From Gammaproteobacteria bacterium (GTDB taxonomy: Bacteria; Pseudomonadota; Gammaproteobacteria; Pseudomonadales; Azotimanducaceae), in NCBI GenBank assembly GCA_026707945.1, contig JAPOVV010000110.1, positions 62,001-126,000 on the forward strand: DNA of 64,000 bases, in the 5' to 3' direction. A program made the position numbers and the translations under genes. The first letter of the stretch is position 1; each line of letters begins with the position of its first letter. Below are positions 24,140 to 62,329 of the stretch, in pieces. The notes beneath the pieces are model-generated. The model worked only from the letters and a program-made list of their open reading frames with translations. It did not search any database and was not told where the DNA came from.

Positions 24140-25360
24140 TTAGCCCTTTTCGCGCGAAGTTGAACCCGATGAATAGCCAGGTGGCCGACCGCGCTCCCAA
24201 ACGTGAGCACGGGCAACCTCTTCATTGAGATCAGCGCCCCATCCAGGGCTCGACGGAATGATGGCGCTCCCCTGTTCGATTTCCAGCGGCTCAGTCAATA
24301 AGTCGTCTTTCCACGGGACATCATCGATGTCAATCTCACAAATCCTGATGTTGGGTGAGACCGCACAAAGATGTAGTGAATGCAACGTTGACAGATGCGA
24401 GTAATAGTTGTGCGGGGCGCAGTTGACCTCAAACGTCTCGGCCATCTCAACCACGCGTTTCGAATTCGCGTACCCGTTCCATGGCACGTCGACCATACAA
24501 ACGTCCATCGATCGAGCTTCGAAATAACGCCGGTACTCCCTCGTCGTAAACAGATTTTCACCTGAACATACAGGAACTCTAACCGCGTCGCGAATCTCTC
24601 GCAGTCCGTCAGGTTCGTACATGTCGATTTCTACCCACATCATGTTGAGGTCCTCCAGCACTCGACAGATGCGAGTCGCCGCCTCTACCCGAAAATTAAA
24701 GTTCAGGTCCAACGCGATATCGACATGCGGACCAACGGCGTCCCGAAACGTTCCGATTTGCGTGCGAATGTGCTCTAACAGAGCGTTGGTGATCGTGCCA
24801 TCCGTCGTCCCTTCCCCGCCGCCAAATCCCGGTCGATAGGTCCTTGCTTCTTCCCCTGGATAAATGATGTTCGTCTTAAGCGCGGTGAAACCACGTTCAA
24901 CGACCTCCTTACCTAGTGCCGTAACGTCATTCCAAGTCCGAAGCGGAGGCACGCCAATGATCTCCCAGTTTCCCGCCCTGGAACTGCCGCAGTGCGACCA
25001 ATACACGCGTTGGCGGGTACGCATTGGTCCGCCAACTAACTCATAAACCGGTACTCCTAGCGCTTTCGCTTTGATGTCCCACAATGCAAGCTCGATGCCC
25101 GCGATTGCTTTCGCAGCGATTCCGCCAGGGCTTTGTCGCGCTACCCGATACATATCCCAATACCGCGTTTCAATTGGCCGTGGATCTTTACCAACCAAGA
25201 TCGTCTGTAATTCCTTGGCAGTACCCACCACACTATAGGGCAACCTGCCATCAGAGCACTCGCCGTATCCCGTAATACCTGCATCGGTGCGTACTGCAAC
25301 AAAGGACCACGGTCGCCACCCTGCGTCAACAACGAATGTCTCTAGTCCCGTTATCTTCAT
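24140..25360 (-). CDS. Mandelate racemase/muconate lactonizing (enolase superfamily) enzyme
   Basis: The 406-residue product has the capping domain (GITGYGECS, ALWDIKAKALGVPVYELVGG) and the barrel with three metal ligands in the expected places: D in IALDLNFN, E in MWVEIDMYE and E in CSGENLF. A histidine in CAPHNYYSHLS is placed like the catalytic base of the D-galactonate dehydratase group. So a sugar-acid dehydratase is likely, with unknown substrate. It is the last gene of a minus-strand group with a DUF3500 lipoprotein and an AhpD-like protein, 36 bases after the former. The C-terminal 15 residues are basic and serine-rich. Confidence 0.85.
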   Translation of the reverse strand: MKITGLETFVVDAGWRPWSFVAVRTDAGITGYGECSDGRLPYSVVGTAKELQTILVGKDPRPIETRYWDMYRVARQSPGGIAAKAIAGIELALWDIKAKALGVPVYELVGGPMRTRQRVYWSHCGSSRAGNWEIIGVPPLRTWNDVTALGKEVVERGFTALKTNIIYPGEEARTYRPGFGGGEGTTDGTITNALLEHIRTQIGTFRDAVGPHVDIALDLNFNFRVEAATRICRVLEDLNMMWVEIDMYEPDGLREIRDAVRVPVCSGENLFTTREYRRYFEARSMDVCMVDVPWNGYANSKRVVEMAETFEVNCAPHNYYSHLSTLHSLHLCAVSPNIRICEIDIDDVPWKDDLLTEPLEIEQGSAIIPSSPGWGADLNEEVARAHVWERGRPPGYSSGSTSREKG

Positions 25361-25396: not shown

Positions 25397-26533
25397 CTAG
25401 TTCGCGGTATTGAGCGCGACTTGATGGTGCGGCGCCGTCAAGTAATGTTCCGCAATCGTTCGCGGATACGAACCTCGTTGAGCGTATTCGCCATAGTCGC
25501 TAAACGGATGCTCGCCAAGCAATCGCAAGATCGTGTGGACGTGATTGGAACTCACGTCGTTGTACTCGATCAACATGCGGTTTGGAATGAATATCCGGTA
25601 GTAGATGTCCTCATCGCGATTGTCGTAGACGACGAAGCCATCACTTAATGCGTCGTCTACTGTCGCTCGTACTCGCCCCGCGAACGGTTCCGCCAGATTA
25701 TTGATGTACTCATCAATCACATCATGCACGCCATTGAGCGATTGTCTTGAGAGCGTCCCGATTCGAGCACCCACGCCGTCAAACTTCGACACGTCGTACG
25801 TACGACCTCGGTCCAGTTGACCGCGTCCCGATCCAACGATGACATCACGACCAATCAACGCGTCCTGCTTTGCGAAGGAACGTTCATCATCTGTAAACGC
25901 CTCGATTAGATCTCTGCCTAAGCGCGCTTCATCGACTAGCGGCGCTCGGCCGTCCACACTGAGCGGCTGAGCACCTAGAAAAGCTGGCGCTAACACGATA
26001 TCTGCTTCCTGAACTAGGAAGTTCAAGGCAAGATGGTGGCCATCGACCTGAAATCCCCAAGCACCATCTATTCTCGGATCCCCAAACAACGCAACCGTAT
26101 GAGAGCCAAGTGGCGCCGCACGTGCGACTTGTGTAATCTCATTGGCAATAAGCCTAGCTTTGACGAGTCCAGACTCGCTTAGTAATTTAGCGACCAATTC
26201 CCATGCAAGCCGTTGCTGTTCCGCGGACATCTCACGCAACTCGATGCCGCCGGAGCGGGTGCCAGGCACATTTGTCCACGAATGCATTTCTGCATCACCA
26301 AGGCAGTATTGCGCCTGTTTCACCATGCCTTCATCAAGTGATGACACCCAACTAACGGCAGCTGCCGTTATCGGTGCAACTGCAGGATCATCGCTTACGA
26401 CCGCATCAATCGGTTCACACGCAGCAAGGTCTGACGCTACACGGTTTGAGTCGGATTGAGCTTGCGAACAACCCGCCACGGTAGCACACACGATTGAGAA
26501 GAACACCAACCGCATCGAGTTTCGGAACCACAT
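25397..26533 (-). CDS. DUF3500-family lipoprotein
   Basis: The 378-residue protein has a lipoprotein signal with TVAGC, lipidated cysteine at 22, and should reside in the periplasm attached to a membrane. The body matches DUF3500: GIELREMSAEQQRLAW, a following LLSESG, WGFQVDGHHLALNF with its histidine pair, and PAFLGAQP. The family is of unknown function; the paired histidines suggest metal binding. I chose the ATG at 26533, which puts the signal peptide at the start and leaves 19 bases after the upstream gene; the longer frame from 26599 would overlap that gene. Co-transcription with the selenoprotein gene is likely. Confidence 0.8.
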   Translation of the reverse strand: MWFRNSMRLVFFSIVCATVAGCSQAQSDSNRVASDLAACEPIDAVVSDDPAVAPITAAAVSWVSSLDEGMVKQAQYCLGDAEMHSWTNVPGTRSGGIELREMSAEQQRLAWELVAKLLSESGLVKARLIANEITQVARAAPLGSHTVALFGDPRIDGAWGFQVDGHHLALNFLVQEADIVLAPAFLGAQPLSVDGRAPLVDEARLGRDLIEAFTDDERSFAKQDALIGRDVIVGSGRGQLDRGRTYDVSKFDGVGARIGTLSRQSLNGVHDVIDEYINNLAEPFAGRVRATVDDALSDGFVVYDNRDEDIYYRIFIPNRMLIEYNDVSSNHVHTILRLLGEHPFSDYGEYAQRGSYPRTIAEHYLTAPHHQVALNTAN

Positions 26534-26552: not shown

Positions 26553-27632
26553 TTACGCGTCAACCTGGTCGTACTTACGGGATTTTTCTCGATACTCAAA
26601 ATCGTCGATCGCGAGCTGCGACCTCATCGAAGCCGTCGCTTCTGCTGGACCGGCATCTAATGGAATTCCCGTCGCATCCGCGATCCGCGTGATGCCGTTG
26701 AATGCAGACGTAACGGCGATTGCATCGACCGTCTCTTGTGGACCGAGCGCTTCAATGCATTCCTCTCGTATCGACGCAACGTCTTCCCATCGACGGGAAA
26801 TCGTTGAATCGACTAACTGTCCGAGTAAACGTCCATGCTCGATACCCGAGTCAATCGTTGTGTCCATGACGCCTCGAAGCTCAAACTCGCCACTCCCACG
26901 GAGCAGCATGGTGTGCATCGTCGTTCAGTAGAAACACTGATTCAACGCGGACACTCGCGCCGCGATAAATTCAGCTTGGCTCCTGGAAATAGAAATGGGT
27001 AAATTGGTAATGTAATACGCTTGGCGCATCACCGTAAAGAACAACTCGATGACGAGTGGGACAAGACCCATGGCGCGAATGATGTTCGCCTGTCTCGGGA
27101 TTCCGACTTCGTTTAGTTGACCATCGCGTGGTGCGAGTCGAACCCATGCGCCGTCTTCTACGACTTCCGGTTCAGTCTGCCCTGTCGGCGGATCATCCGA
27201 GCCTTCTAACGTCTCCGGGACTGGCAACCCTAATCCTTGATGCAGCGTATCGATCACCACCGATGTCGCAACCACGCCAATGAGTTCGATGTATTCGCTA
27301 TCCGTCATGCCGTTCGCCAGAGCGTTCTCAAACACAGACCGGCTCATTCGAGCGGGATCGGTTCGAATTCGGTGAATGACGTCGACTGCGACTGGGGATA
27401 AATCAGTGACCGTTTCGTGTTCGCCATCGACCGCATTCGGTGAAAGTGCCTCCAATCGACGTCGGCACAGCTCGCATTCGAAACTTTGACGAGCCTCCCG
27501 GATCATTGCCATGTGATCGCGCCCGGTCCAGAAAGGTCCACTTTCACCCAACCGTCGCCATACTTCGGCGAACGCATCGACAGTCGCCTGACGAATCGGA
27601 TATTCGCAATTCTCAAACACGTTCGCTTCCAT
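26553..27632 (-). CDS. AhpD-like (carboxymuconolactone decarboxylase superfamily) selenoprotein, TGA read as selenocysteine
   Basis: The two open frames at 26925-27632 and 26553-26918 are in the same phase and separated by one TGA (26927-26925) and two codons. Read through, they form one 359-residue protein. The TGA falls exactly at the second cysteine of the AhpD redox motif: E222, then C233-F-Y-U236-T-T-M-H240, i.e. CxxUxxxH. The sequence after the TGA continues the family without a break, including DAIAVTSAFNGITRIADAT. An extra CxxC lies at C53 and C56. A SECIS-like hairpin follows the TGA. AhpD-type proteins reduce peroxides or relay electrons; the selenolate would be the attacking residue. 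The ATG at 27632 is preferred over a TTG at 27644. Selenoprotein status is inferred; selA, selB, selC and selD are not in the window. Confidence 0.85.
26889..26927 (-). promoter_or_regulatory. Candidate bacterial SECIS element after the in-frame TGA
   Basis: In the mRNA sense, the TGA (26927-26925) is followed by 17 bases and then a hairpin: GCTGCTCC at 26907-26900 pairs over eight positions with GGAGTGGC at 26896-26889 (two of them G-U), leaving the apical loop GTG at 26899-26897. The loop begins 25 bases after the TGA, inside the 16-37-base window reported for bacterial SECIS elements, and it is G-rich as expected for SelB binding. It overlaps codons for the LLRGSG part of the protein. No folding program was run. 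Confidence 0.7.
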
Positions 27633-39113: not shown

Positions 39114-40463
39114 TTAATACGCTTGCGCCGGTAACCACGTGACAAGTGAGACGAAATAGAAAATCAACGCGAGCCCAATAAGCTGCAATACGATAAATGG
39201 GCTAACACCTTTGTAAATTGTGGTTGCCTGCAAATCAGGTGGGGCGGCTCCCTTCAGATAGAAGATAGCAAAACCGACCGGTGGTGTGAGGAAGCTCGTT
39301 TGGAGGCATACGGCAAATAAGACCGTAAACCAAATGGGATCGAAACCTAGTGTAATTACGACCGGCGAAACCAACGGCAGGATGATGAGCGTCAGCTCAA
39401 TCCAATCAAGAAAAAAGCCAAGAAGGAACGTACAAAACAGGATCGTAATCACCACACCAGTTGGTCCGAACGGAAGATTTAGTAGAGTTCGTTCGATCAG
39501 TTCATCCCCGCCCAACCCGCGCAGTACTAATGAAAACGCTGTGGCGCCAATCAAGATCGCGAAGATGAAAGCCGTAGTCTTCGTGGTCTCTGCCAGTACT
39601 TCCCTAAAGACCGGCAAATCAAGCTTTCGTTTCCATAGCGCTAATAGCAACGCCCCAAATGCGCCCACCCCCGCAGCTTCAGTAGGTGTCGCAATACCGA
39701 AGAAGATGCTTCCGAGGACACCAAGGATCAGAGCCGCGGGAGGGAGAATCGCCAGAATCAAGCGTTGTAGCTCTCTTAAGTCAAACGTACCTTCATCGGG
39801 GAGTTTCGGTGCCAGATTGGGTTTGATCAACCCCAACACCACGATATAGAGGACGTAGAGCGATCCCAGCAGAAGTCCAGGAAACACGGCCCCGAGGAAC
39901 AAGTCGCCAACAGGCATCGCCATTCGGTCTGCCATTAGCACGAGCATGATGCTTGGCGGAATCAAGATCCCTAAAGTACCGACAGCACAGACGGTTCCCG
40001 ATGCCAACATAGGTGCGTAGCCCTGTTTCAGCATCACCGGTAACCCGAGAAGCGCGAGCAGCACAACCGAAGCGCCAATGATCCCCGTCGTCGCGGCGAG
40101 TAGGACACCGATCAAAGTCACGGAAATAGCAAGTCCGCCCGATACCCTACGAAAGAGTTTCGCAAAACTCGTCATCAACTCACTAGCAATCCCGGACCGG
40201 TCAAGAAGCAGACCCATGAAAATGAACATGGGTAACGCAACCATGACCCAGTTTTCCATGACATTCCAGACGCGATCGACCGTAATCGACGTGTAGAGCC
40301 AGTCGACGCCAGTGAAGATACCAAGATCGATATCCACGATGATGGCAATGCATGTAAACAACACCGCCAAGCCGGCCAGAATCCAAGCGACAGGGAAACC
40401 CGTGAAGACCAAAAGAATGAAGGCGAAGAACATCGCCAACGCAAGTATTTCGTTAAGTTCCAC
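39114..40463 (-). CDS. dctM: TRAP transporter large permease DctM
   Basis: DctM is the 12-helix ion-coupled channel of a TRAP importer. The 449-residue product has the family pattern FTGFPVAWILAGLAV, VALPMFIFMGLLLDRSG, GTLGILIPPSIMLV and LTPPVGFAIFYLKG. The longest frame begins at 40532, but the GTG at 40463 (VELNEILALAMFF) gives a start just before the first helix and an 11-base overlap with dctQ. It forms an operon dctP-dctQ-dctM on the minus strand. Confidence 0.92.
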   Translation of the reverse strand: MELNEILALAMFFAFILLVFTGFPVAWILAGLAVLFTCIAIIVDIDLGIFTGVDWLYTSITVDRVWNVMENWVMVALPMFIFMGLLLDRSGIASELMTSFAKLFRRVSGGLAISVTLIGVLLAATTGIIGASVVLLALLGLPVMLKQGYAPMLASGTVCAVGTLGILIPPSIMLVLMADRMAMPVGDLFLGAVFPGLLLGSLYVLYIVVLGLIKPNLAPKLPDEGTFDLRELQRLILAILPPAALILGVLGSIFFGIATPTEAAGVGAFGALLLALWKRKLDLPVFREVLAETTKTTAFIFAILIGATAFSLVLRGLGGDELIERTLLNLPFGPTGVVITILFCTFLLGFFLDWIELTLIILPLVSPVVITLGFDPIWFTVLFAVCLQTSFLTPPVGFAIFYLKGAAPPDLQATTIYKGVSPFIVLQLIGLALIFYFVSLVTWLPAQAY

Positions 40464-40968
40464 GTATGAACAAACCAGCGTAAAGCCGCGAGAGCCTAGA
40501 AAGTGCGGCGAGAAGCAACAGCCCGAAACCAATAACTAAGAACGCTTTGATAAACCATCGAAACGGCAATCCACCCGGAGAGGCTGAGATTTCACCGATG
40601 TTGAAGCTGTAGATAAAGAAATCCCAACCGTACCAAAGCATGACGATGCAAAACGGGACGACAAACAACAGTAACCCATAGAAATCAATCCACAGCCGTG
40701 CGCGATGCGGCATTCTCTCGTGAAATACGTCCACGCGAATATGAGCGTCCGTGATCAACGCATAGCCGATGGTCAACATGAACCCCATGGAATATAGATG
40801 CCATTGGAGTTCTTCGAACTCAATACGACCTTGATCGAATAAGTATCTGGCAGTCACGTTGATCACGATAACTGCCATGAGGACGACCCAGAGAACCGAA
40901 ACTCCTTGGGCAATTCGGCTCAATACCGGATCGACGATACGAGACAGCCAAGTACTGGGTAAATCCAT
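40453..40968 (-). CDS. dctQ: TRAP transporter small permease DctQ
   Basis: The 171-residue protein has four membrane helices, with the family segments VTARYLFDQGRIEFEELQWH split as NVTARYLF and EFEELQWHLY, and DAHIRVDVFHERM between helices two and three. It joins DctM in the membrane part of the importer. Its ATG follows directly on the dctP stop, and its end overlaps dctM. The glycine-rich SPGGLPFRWFIKAF precedes the last helix, as usual. Confidence 0.9.
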   Translation of the reverse strand: MDLPSTWLSRIVDPVLSRIAQGVSVLWVVLMAVIVINVTARYLFDQGRIEFEELQWHLYSMGFMLTIGYALITDAHIRVDVFHERMPHRARLWIDFYGLLLFVVPFCIVMLWYGWDFFIYSFNIGEISASPGGLPFRWFIKAFLVIGFGLLLLAALSRLSRLYAGLFIRGT

Positions 40969-42093
40969 TCAGAAATCTCGCGGCAGATACGCGAACTTTT
41001 TCCAGTGTGCGTAGTCCGCTCGAAAAGCGCTTTGCGACTCGTAAATACGTTTGAAGTCTGCGTCATTCGCCGACTCCTCGGCCATTACCTCGTCGGAAAG
41101 ACGATTCAGTTCGCGGAGGACGTCTTCGGGTAAATAGTTCGCGGTCACACCTTTCTCTGCGAAACTCGCGATGATCGGACCTTGGACCGCTTCTGCTTTA
41201 GCTAGATTACGCGTTACACCGGCAGTGCATGCGGTCTCCAAAATGCTCTGTTCCTGTGGTGTCAGCCCTTGCCATTGATCCAGATTCACCGTTAGGTGAA
41301 TCGAGGTAAAAACCTGATGCCACCCGGGGAAATAGTTGAGCTTCGCGACGCGATCGAAGCCCAGTGATTGATCGACGTTAGGTAATGAGTACTCAGTGGC
41401 GTCAATCGCGCCTTTTTCGAGTGCTTGAAAGATCTCTGCACCCGGAATCATCGTGACCGACGCACCGGTTCGCTCGATGACCTTCCCGCCGAGACCAGCA
41501 AATCGAATTTTCAAGCCTCGGAGATCGTCGAGCGAATTAATCGGCTCTCTGAACCAGCCTGCCGTTTCAGGTCCAATAAGTCCACACAGTAGGACGTGAA
41601 CGCCGTCACGCGCGTAGAGTTCTTGAGCGAGTTGCTCGCCTCCCCCTTCGAACCACCATGACGAGAACTCCCAAGGCTCTAGTCCAAACGGAACCGCACC
41701 AAGGAGAGGAGACGCTGGAATCTTGCCTTGATCGTAGCCTAACCAAGTGTAGCCGGCAGGGATTTTCCCTTCACGCACGGCGTCAACGATTTGAAATTCC
41801 GGCACGATCTCTTTCGGTTCCGCGATAAGGAACTCGAATCTGCCATTGGAAAGCGAGTCCACCAATCCAGCGACATAAATGATGTTGTCGCCAAGTACCT
41901 CAAGATTAGTAGGAAACGAAACGGGGACACGCCATCGCTTCTCTGCTAAACCGGACTCGCCAACGACGCGACTTGTGCTACCCTCTTCTTTGGTATTCGC
42001 CGAATACCAGAGAGGAAACCGAATCACAAGCGCAAGTACCAGCCCCACTATAAACGCCACTAGGACAAGCAGCGACACTTCTCGTCGATTCAA
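40969..42093 (-). CDS. dctP: TRAP transporter substrate-binding protein DctP
   Basis: The 374-residue protein has an N-terminal hydrophobic segment (SLLVLVAFIVGLVLALVI) acting as signal anchor and then the periplasmic binding fold. LRGLKIRFAGLGGKVIERTGA contains the conserved arginine that holds the ligand carboxylate (here R in KIRFAG), and ATEYSLPNVDQSLGF resembles the TakP-like group that takes up 2-oxo acids or similar. The ligand is not known. It is divergent from the P450 gene, so a shared 196-base control region lies upstream. Confidence 0.9.
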   Translation of the reverse strand: MNRREVSLLVLVAFIVGLVLALVIRFPLWYSANTKEEGSTSRVVGESGLAEKRWRVPVSFPTNLEVLGDNIIYVAGLVDSLSNGRFEFLIAEPKEIVPEFQIVDAVREGKIPAGYTWLGYDQGKIPASPLLGAVPFGLEPWEFSSWWFEGGGEQLAQELYARDGVHVLLCGLIGPETAGWFREPINSLDDLRGLKIRFAGLGGKVIERTGASVTMIPGAEIFQALEKGAIDATEYSLPNVDQSLGFDRVAKLNYFPGWHQVFTSIHLTVNLDQWQGLTPQEQSILETACTAGVTRNLAKAEAVQGPIIASFAEKGVTANYLPEDVLRELNRLSDEVMAEESANDADFKRIYESQSAFRADYAHWKKFAYLPRDF

Positions 42094-59977: not shown

Positions 59978-62329
59978 ATGAGTGCTGAAACTGGGATTGG
60001 TGCATCCGTTCTTCGAAAAGAGGATGCACGCTTCATCACGGGGAAAGGTCAATACACCGACGACATAAGTGTCTTCGGACAAACGCACTGCGTTTTTGTT
60101 CGATCCCCACATGCCCGCGCCAAAATCAATGGCATAAACACCGACGCTGCGATGGCGATGGATGGAGTGATTCGTGTCTTTACGGGAGACGAATTAGTCG
60201 AGGATGGGATAGGCGATCTGCCTTGTGGATGGGTGGTCAACAGCAAGGACGGCACACCCATGGTCTCGCCTCCGCACCCGCCAATCGCTACTTCCGTTGT
60301 GAATTACGTCGGGGAGCCATACGCTTTCGTAGTAGCGGAGACACTTCAAGCTGCCCGTGACGGCGCGGAAGCAGTCGAAGCTGATTTTGAAATCTTGGAA
60401 GCGGTCGTCGACACAGCAACCGCATCAAGTAGCGCCCAGATCCACGAGAACGCCCCAAACAATCAAGCGTACGACTGGGAGTTGGGAGATAGAGAGGCAA
60501 CGGATGCCGCATTTGCAAAGGCCGACCATGTCACGACTTTGGACATTACCAACAATCGGTTGATTCCGAACGCTATTGAGCCGCGAGCCGCCCTCGGCTC
60601 GTATGACGCCGCTTCAAGTACGTACACGCTTTACACGACATCACAGAACCCCCATGTCGAACGGGTTGTTCTAGCGTTGTTTGTAAACGTCGCACCCGAA
60701 GCAAATCTTCGCGTCATTTCACCAGACGTTGGTGGCGGGTTCGGCTCGAAGATCTTCGTTTACGCAGAAGAGACAGCGGTCATTTGGGCATCTGCAAAAG
60801 TCGGTAGACCTATTAAGTGGCGTGCCGATAGGACTGAGTCGTTTCTCAGCGACGCTCACGGACGCGATCACGTCACAAAAGCTGAGTTAGCGCTCTCGTC
60901 CGAAGGCGAAATGCTTGGTTTGCGCGTAAAAACCATTGCCAATATGGGGGCGTACCTCTCGACGTTCTCGTCGAGCGTACCTACCTATCTCTACGGCACC
61001 TTGATGGCTGGACAATACAAGACACCGGCCATCTACGTTGAGACTCAAGCCGTCTTCACAAACACGGCTCCCGTCGATGCGTATCGAGGTGCTGGTCGAC
61101 CGGAAGCGACCTACGTCGTTGAACGGATCGTTGAGACAGCAGCTCGCGAACTCAATATGGACCCGGTCGAACTACGGCGCAAGAATTTCATTCCTCCCGA
61201 TGCGTTTCCATATCAAACGCCTGTAGCGCTCGAGTACGACACAGGGAACTACGCGGCTAGTATGGGTAAAGCACTGGAACTCGCGGACAGCGATGGTTAC
61301 GCAGCCCGTAAAGCAGCTTCTGAAACCAATGGCAAACTGCGCGGACGAGGTTACTCGTGCTACATCGAAGCGTGCGGTATCGCACCTTCCCAGCTAGTTA
61401 TCTCGTTAGGCGCTGGCGTTGGTTTGTTCGAATCCGCAGAAGTACGCGTGGACGTATCCGGATCGGTAACGGTTATGACTGGTTCTCACAGTCATGGCCA
61501 AGGTCATGAAACTACGTTCGCACAGCTCGTGTCCGATCGCCTCGGCATCCCGTTCGAGAGTGTCAACGTCATTCATGGTGACACCGGACGATCCGACTAC
61601 GGACTTGGCACCTACGGATCTCGGTCCATAGCTGTCGGTGGATCTGCGATCGATCGTGCACTGGACAAGATCATTGCGAAAGGCAAGAAGATCGCCGCTC
61701 ACATGTTCGAAACCACAGAGGACCAGGTCGAATTCGCCGAAGGTCAGTTCAGTTATGCGGGAAGTAACGAACCGAAACCTTTTGCAGAGATTGCGGGGGC
61801 AGCGTACATCCCTGCCGTCTACCCACTCGATGAACTCGAACCAGGGCTCTCGGAAAAGGCCTTTTACGATCCGAAGAACTTTACGTATCCAGCCGGTTCG
61901 TACGTCTGCGAAGTCGAAATCGATCCTTCGACTGGCGTAACGGAAATCGAGAAATTCGTCGCAGTCGACGATTTCGGTAACGTCATAAATCCGATGATCG
62001 TGGAAGGTCAAGTTCATGGCGGGCTCGCTCAAGGTATTGGTCAGGCGCTACTTGAACATGGCATCTACGACGGTGACGGCAACCTCTCGACGGGTTCGTA
62101 TATGGACTACGCGATGCCGCGCGCCACCGATTTGCCTGATTTCGAGGTTGATATGACCTCAACACCTTGCACCCACAACCCGCTCGGCGTTAAGGGTTGT
62201 GGCGAAGCCGGAGCGATCGGATCGCCTGCTGCAGTCATGAATGCCATCACCGACGCTCTAGGCGTCAAGGATGTACCTATGCCTGCAACACCTCATACCG
62301 TATGGGAAACCATTCAACAAGGAGCGTAA
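59978..62329 (+). CDS. Molybdenum hydroxylase large subunit (CoxL-like, xanthine dehydrogenase family)
   Basis: The 783-residue subunit holds the molybdopterin cofactor: GGGFGSKIFVYAEE, AYRGAGRPEA at 368-377, GSHSHGQGHETTFAQ and the catalytic glutamate in GCGEAGAIG. True CO dehydrogenase (form I) has AYxCSFR with the copper-sulfur cysteine at the second position; here AYRGAGR is found, so this is not a form I CO dehydrogenase. It is more likely an aldehyde or N-heterocycle hydroxylase of the form II group. It needs the small and FAD subunits that flank it. Confidence 0.9.
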   Translation: MSAETGIGASVLRKEDARFITGKGQYTDDISVFGQTHCVFVRSPHARAKINGINTDAAMAMDGVIRVFTGDELVEDGIGDLPCGWVVNSKDGTPMVSPPHPPIATSVVNYVGEPYAFVVAETLQAARDGAEAVEADFEILEAVVDTATASSSAQIHENAPNNQAYDWELGDREATDAAFAKADHVTTLDITNNRLIPNAIEPRAALGSYDAASSTYTLYTTSQNPHVERVVLALFVNVAPEANLRVISPDVGGGFGSKIFVYAEETAVIWASAKVGRPIKWRADRTESFLSDAHGRDHVTKAELALSSEGEMLGLRVKTIANMGAYLSTFSSSVPTYLYGTLMAGQYKTPAIYVETQAVFTNTAPVDAYRGAGRPEATYVVERIVETAARELNMDPVELRRKNFIPPDAFPYQTPVALEYDTGNYAASMGKALELADSDGYAARKAASETNGKLRGRGYSCYIEACGIAPSQLVISLGAGVGLFESAEVRVDVSGSVTVMTGSHSHGQGHETTFAQLVSDRLGIPFESVNVIHGDTGRSDYGLGTYGSRSIAVGGSAIDRALDKIIAKGKKIAAHMFETTEDQVEFAEGQFSYAGSNEPKPFAEIAGAAYIPAVYPLDELEPGLSEKAFYDPKNFTYPAGSYVCEVEIDPSTGVTEIEKFVAVDDFGNVINPMIVEGQVHGGLAQGIGQALLEHGIYDGDGNLSTGSYMDYAMPRATDLPDFEVDMTSTPCTHNPLGVKGCGEAGAIGSPAAVMNAITDALGVKDVPMPATPHTVWETIQQGA

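Follow-up and report, generated by a model that had tools for sequence, protein, structure and literature searches.

A predicted AhpD-related selenoprotein of family NF041238 with a conserved in-frame UGA and a diverged N-terminal CMD-like domain in an Azotimanducaceae genome

The stretch of DNA analysed here (the window; 64,000 nucleotides, positions 62,001 to 126,000 of contig JAPOVV010000110.1, assembly GCA_026707945.1) contains two minus-strand open reading frames of the same phase that are parted by a single TGA, which raises the question of whether this codon ends a gene or is read as selenocysteine (Sec) inside one. Read through, the frame extends from the ATG at 27632-27630 across the TGA at 26925-26927 to the TAA at 26553-26555 (gene at 26553..27632, minus strand) and encodes 359 residues, with the TGA as residue 236. 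The residues around this codon read CFY-TGA-TTMH (26913..26936), and two further cysteines, C53 and C56, are present upstream. The preliminary description had proposed same-phase frames parted by one TGA, a C-x-x-U-x-x-x-H motif with Sec as the second cysteine, a relation to AhpD, a length greater than that of AhpD and an extra N-terminal CxxC, and these were confirmed or, for the placement of Sec, supported by the frame as read, by the conservation of the TGA across relatives and by the domain matches given below. When the window was scanned for single TGA codons flanked on each side by over 100 codons free of stops, two cases were returned, the second of which, at 40969-40971, is formed by two neighbouring genes with an ATG directly after the TGA; the frame alone is therefore weak evidence for read-through, and the selenoprotein TGA is placed beyond chance because relatives hold a TGA at the same place. 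The region of the second case (39114-42093, minus strand) comprises two same-phase genes split by TGA-ATG and then a third, which is presumably a TRAP transporter operon and serves as a false-positive example for TGA read-through.

The family of the gene was identified by profile searches. Pfam detected the CMD core alone (residues 214-249, E 8.5e-8), while the NCBIfam model NF041238.1 (AhpD_rel_CFYUT, "alkylhydroperoxidase-related (seleno)protein") matched over positions 1-356 of its 357 with 368.4 bits against a cut-off of 175, and the part before the TGA scored 237.4 bits by itself. The TGA stands at the U of the CFYUT motif of this model. The model TIGR01926 for peroxidase-related CMD proteins gave E 1.3e-7 and 31.6 bits, under its cut-off of 81.8, and the C-terminal half also matched PDB entries 2pfx (E 3.3e-4) and 2oyo (E 2.7e-3). 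In a 2026 review (PMC13188914), NF041238 appears under the name "AhpD-related protein (hypothetical protein 1, Sargasso Sea metagenome)" with the motif CxxU, and hypothetical protein 1 was described in a 2005 survey (PMC1088965) from four Sec sequences with a CxxU motif, a protein for which that survey found no functional evidence. The selenoprotein family was thus known before, having been named by NCBIfam and by the review, and on its sequence the gene reads as a further member of an already catalogued family; the earlier reading as an AhpD-like selenoprotein stands, and its account of prior knowledge is corrected accordingly.

The conservation of the TGA was assessed at several taxonomic levels. 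Among 200 sampled genomes of the host's family, the gene was found over the cut-off in 132, and the in-frame TGA was present in all 150 over-cut-off rows among the matches listed (counted by eye), 148 of them with a single TGA and no other stop, one with two TGA codons and one with a TGA and a TAG. In the order-wide protein search, 12 of 293 genomes yielded full-length rows, 14 in total, all with TGA and one also with TAG; 13 more rows were short partial matches. In the class search one of 369 genomes was over the cut-off, the window's own, and 24 more rows fell under it, all partial and free of stops; in the phylum search it was again the window's own genome, one of 398. A pattern permitting any amino acid or a stop codon in place of Sec collected 154 members from 153 loci, each with TGA at that codon, and one further locus missed by the pattern (L248) likewise has CFYUTTSH, so that all 155 genes read have the TGA at the same position; their loci had been chosen from TGA-bearing rows or from their close relatives. 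As the loci were drawn in this way, it is the order, class, phylum and family searches that serve as the test for cysteine forms, and no full-length version with Cys at residue 236 was seen in any of these genome searches; the relatives keep the TGA, even where protein identity falls as low as 33%. No copy turned up in viral contigs, in a search with a range of close relatives only. In a control genome, that of Deinobacterium chartae, an NF041238 match was observed with E 1e-20 or better, yet below the cut-off, and a Cys relative is possible there.

The stretch 3' of the UGA forms a putative bSECIS element, with the general form GCUC-N5-GAGC and its loop 25-29 bases past the UGA, a position that agrees with that of bacterial SECIS elements; in the window the apical hairpin reads GCUC-CGUGG-GAGU (26892..26904, minus strand). 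Covariation was observed in the stem across relatives. Pair 27-33 in 150 distinct stretches is C-G in 132, T-A in 17, T-G in one and broken in none, the T-A cases being counts of sequences and not of independent events, while the remaining pairs are broken in none (26-34), two (25-35) and three (24-36) of these stretches, and all four stem pairs are standard in 145 of the 150. The codon choice in the stem is similarly restricted, with the leucine codon being CTC in 132 and CTT in 18 and never another, against 20% CTC and 12% CTT among the leucine codons elsewhere in 74 of these genes, and the serine codon being AGC or AGT in 143 of 143 stretches with serine there, against 42% elsewhere. Synonymous codon choice, together with paired C-G to T-A changes, keeps the hairpin intact. 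The 66-base hairpin region of the window was no more stable than its shuffled versions (z -0.60, 52 of 200 shuffles as good), and Rfam gave no relevant match, its two matches being at chance level and to unrelated families.

Selection was estimated on both sides of the UGA by comparison with four close relatives. In the part that follows the UGA, dS was 0.94-1.50 and dN 0.11-0.12, giving dN/dS of 0.075-0.12, a low value that indicates clear purifying selection on that stretch. The dN/dS before the UGA was 0.026-0.084, about equal in two comparisons and some three times lower in two, and purifying selection after the UGA is somewhat weaker than before it in two of the four.

All four genes for Sec decoding, selA, selB, selC and selD, were detected in the window's own genome (3.8 Mb in 117 contigs, 96% complete), the presence of which the preliminary description had named as a check. 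The tRNA-Sec gene selC scored 71.1 bits against a gathering threshold of 47 and was also called by ARAGORN, and SelB (412.8 bits, cut-off 242.25), SelA (542.8 bits, cut-off 267.9) and SelD (259.8 bits, cut-off 125) all scored over their cut-offs, with the selA and selB frames overlapping by four bases. The SelD protein (L120:3947-6169) carries a fused pyridine-nucleotide-disulphide oxidoreductase domain and resembles the Ndh-SelD fusions described in PMC2398784. Among the 200 genomes of the family, selA matched at 1e-30 in 169 and over its cut-off in 163. Comparison of the listings identified 15 genomes with a strong selenoprotein match (E 3e-80 or better) and no selA match, seven of them named in the selA listing and eight obtained by elimination among 11 unlisted ones. 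None of the seven named genomes, all of which carry the gene, had selB over the cut-off, and tRNA-Sec was present in two and absent in five; two of the selA-less carriers, G1082 and G1099 (93% and 96% complete), hold the UGA gene with no selA, selB or tRNA-Sec found, and in G1182 (96% complete) the selenoprotein gene is present and selA was not found. Most of the selA-less carriers are incomplete, and their lack of selA could be due to contigs absent from the assembly or to a recent loss; they leave the window's own genome unaffected, where all four sel genes are present. Within the host's own genus, 18 sampled genomes were compared, with a family match in nine and none in the other nine, and a selA match in all 18; the selenoprotein gene is gained or lost there, and Sec decoding stays.

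That the TGA is a true stop, left by a pseudogene, by two adjacent genes or by a sequencing error, would agree with the two frames it splits in table 11 and with the carriers in which selA, and selB in all seven tested, were not detected, but it is most improbable against the identical TGA position in so many genes of such divergence, the low dN/dS behind it, the synonymous covarying hairpin and the sel genes of the own genome. With the sel genes, the conserved TGA, the covarying hairpin and the purifying selection after the TGA all supporting the Sec reading, the in-frame TGA is almost certainly read as Sec, and its placement as the second cysteine of the AhpD CxxC is strongly supported. The SelB-tRNA(Sec) system would decode the UGA as Sec, with the hairpin 21-33 nucleotides past the UGA directing the insertion, and we infer that the protein itself carries Sec and has redox activity. 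It is highly probable, taken as a whole, that the gene encodes a single AhpD-related selenoprotein of NF041238 with hairpin-directed Sec and an AhpD-type redox site in its C-terminal part.

The neighbourhood of the gene offers limited guidance on function. Downstream lie a gene for a DUF3500 protein (25397..26533, minus strand; PF12006, E 1.3e-46), whose likely start is the ATG at 26533, 19 bases past the selenoprotein stop, within an open frame that extends to 26599, and a gene for a dehydratase-like protein of the enolase superfamily (MR/MLE; 24140..25360, minus strand; MR_MLE_C, E 2.4e-45). The preliminary description had placed the selenoprotein gene in an operon with these two, a combination not known to it to have been linked to selenium; the neighbours themselves were confirmed, and the arrangement is local to one lineage, with DUF3500 and the enolase-like gene beside the selenoprotein gene in six of 76 loci, and a distant match of 26% to the enolase-like protein in L109. 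The surrounding gene order is also conserved in five of these six, so plain inheritance explains the neighbourhood, and with a share of six in 76 it says little about function; the operon was accordingly rejected as a family-wide functional clue. Across 78 genes in the 76 loci, no neighbour family was common to more than eight loci, the top three reaching eight, seven and seven. In one of the 76 loci (L117), the genes immediately downstream of the selenoprotein gene are selA (568 bits) and selB (403 bits). In another (L110:9374-11164), the selenoprotein gene comes after the genes for the heavy and light chains of methylamine dehydrogenase. PADLOC returned no match.

The residues of the C-terminal site are highly conserved. 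The relay of PA0269 is described in PMC3141380 as Glu36, Cys48, Tyr50, Cys51 and His55, and E221, C233, Y235, U236 and H240 of the selenoprotein have the same spacing as this relay and do not vary in any of the 154 aligned sequences, E221 lying 12 residues upstream of C233. The C-terminal domain would thus be an AhpD/CMD helix hairpin with the full proton relay E221, C233, Y235, U236 and H240. U236, activated by the Glu/Tyr/His relay, most likely attacks a hydroperoxide or disulfide substrate; C233 would then resolve it as a selenenyl-sulfide, and the Se-S bond would be reduced by the thiol system of the cell. The relay has been linked, in PMC3141380, to the peroxidase activity of M. tuberculosis AhpD, and the retention of all five relay residues speaks for a peroxidase here as well. 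A selenoprotein that is no peroxidase, acting instead as a thiol-disulfide adaptor or as a reductase of organic substrates that reuses the AhpD relay, is a serious possibility that falls a little short of an even chance; it would agree with PA0269 being described in that source as a weak peroxidase for all its identical relay, with the absence of a family-wide gene partner in the 76 loci, with the absence of AhpC from the six window neighbours that were searched, and with the position of the gene after the methylamine dehydrogenase chains in L110. A scan of the own genome with PF02627 gave no match at 1e-4 and missed the selenoprotein itself, so this null carries no evidential weight.

The N-terminal half (residues ~6-141; 27210..27617, minus strand) shows a remote relation to the same fold family. 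When the N-half profile, built from 78 genes, was compared by hhalign with 35 single-domain CMD proteins, the alignment spanned 130 columns (probability 95.5, pairwise E 1.5e-8) and placed the N-terminal CxxC on the catalytic CxxC of CMD proteins; a weak phmmer match to 2oyo (6.9 bits) points to this relation too. The reversed control scored 0.2, and the column-shuffled controls remained at or below 6.1 in 117 of 120, with three above 99, each confined to 12-20 columns at the extreme end of the profile and regarded here as an edge artefact. With the cysteines masked, the match dropped to 60 columns at 88.3, and direct comparison of the N-half with the C-half profile gave no match (probability 0.1). 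The relay Glu is absent in the N-half, where 73 of 78 sequences carry V, I, M or L at position 41, and so is the relay His, with no His at position 60 in any sequence and K or R there in 60 of the 78. The N-terminal half thus reads as a diverged AhpD/CMD domain that lacks the relay Glu and His. This domain relation is supported by the computation, as are the family, the conserved UGA, the hairpin and the sel genes.

Four residues of this half are nearly invariant, namely C53 (153 of 154) and C56 (151 of 154) in the C53-x-x-C56 motif (27465..27476), H72 (149 of 154; 27417..27419) and H87 (151 of 154; 27372..27374), all on the minus strand. One row with gaps at all four positions is L087, a gene that was truncated as read by a second in-frame TGA upstream, and in two of the exceptions at H72 (L142 and L202) a His stands two positions further along. 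In L167 and L245, C56, H72 and H87 were lost jointly while C53 and Sec were retained, probably in one event, since the two are 90% identical. The joint loss suggests that C56, H72 and H87 belong to one shared site, perhaps for metal. AlphaFold, run on three close sequences, gave a mean pLDDT of 33, too poor to probe this site.

The N-terminal CxxC together with H72 and H87 may accordingly constitute a structural or regulatory metal site or, as another role, a relay that re-reduces the Se-S bond. The latter, in which the N-terminal CxxC would be a second redox centre feeding electrons to the C-terminal selenenyl-sulfide and no metal site, is favoured by the alignment of this CxxC on the catalytic CxxC of CMD proteins and by the retention of C53 in nearly all members, but the relay Glu and His are missing from the N-half and the joint loss in L167 and L245, with C53 and Sec kept, fits partners of one site better; we consider it quite possible, though somewhat less than probable. 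A protein of tandem AhpD/CMD domains, the first of which would now be a C-C-H-H metal site that holds the second, Sec-bearing domain or senses its state, is put forward tentatively and with a modest probability. Under the tandem metal-site reading, lineages of the L167/L245 type would be ones in which the site is dispensable while Sec stays, and the tandem-domain reading is open to a clear bench test.

This analysis adds three points, namely the constancy of Sec in the sample, the relation between the tandem domains and a conserved group of C-C-H-H residues; in the accessible portion of the open-access literature, no description was found of tandem domains or of a C-C-H-H site in an AhpD-related selenoprotein. 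In other AhpD-like selenoproteins of ocean data the Cys forms exceed the Sec forms, such as 902 against 299 in Table 2 of PMC2398784, unlike the full-length family examined here, in which Sec is present in every gene read. For hypothetical protein 1, Table 2 of PMC1088965 gives seven Cys homologues in the Sargasso data and five in genomes; if these belong to the same family, Sec is not universal in it, and the constant-Sec rule may be limited to this group of bacteria.

Several known proteins resemble the gene product to different extents. The closest is NF041238 itself, the Sargasso hypothetical protein 1, which shares nearly the whole model, the CFYUT motif and Sec at the same place, with nothing seen to distinguish the window copy; the equation of the model with hypothetical protein 1 is taken from the review (PMC13188914), with no sequence comparison behind it here. 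The likeness to peroxidase-related CMD proteins (TIGR01926, 2pfx and 2oyo) covers the C-terminal half of the selenoprotein, and the 2pfx and 2oyo chains, of 191 and 196 residues and both with Cys in the alignment, differ from the 359-residue protein with its predicted Sec. AhpD of Mycobacterium tuberculosis and PA0269 of Pseudomonas aeruginosa share with it the relay of Glu, Cys, His or Tyr, Cys and His, as set out in PMC3141380. Compared with these two, the selenoprotein would have Sec in place of the second Cys, is longer, and possesses an added N-terminal CMD-like domain.
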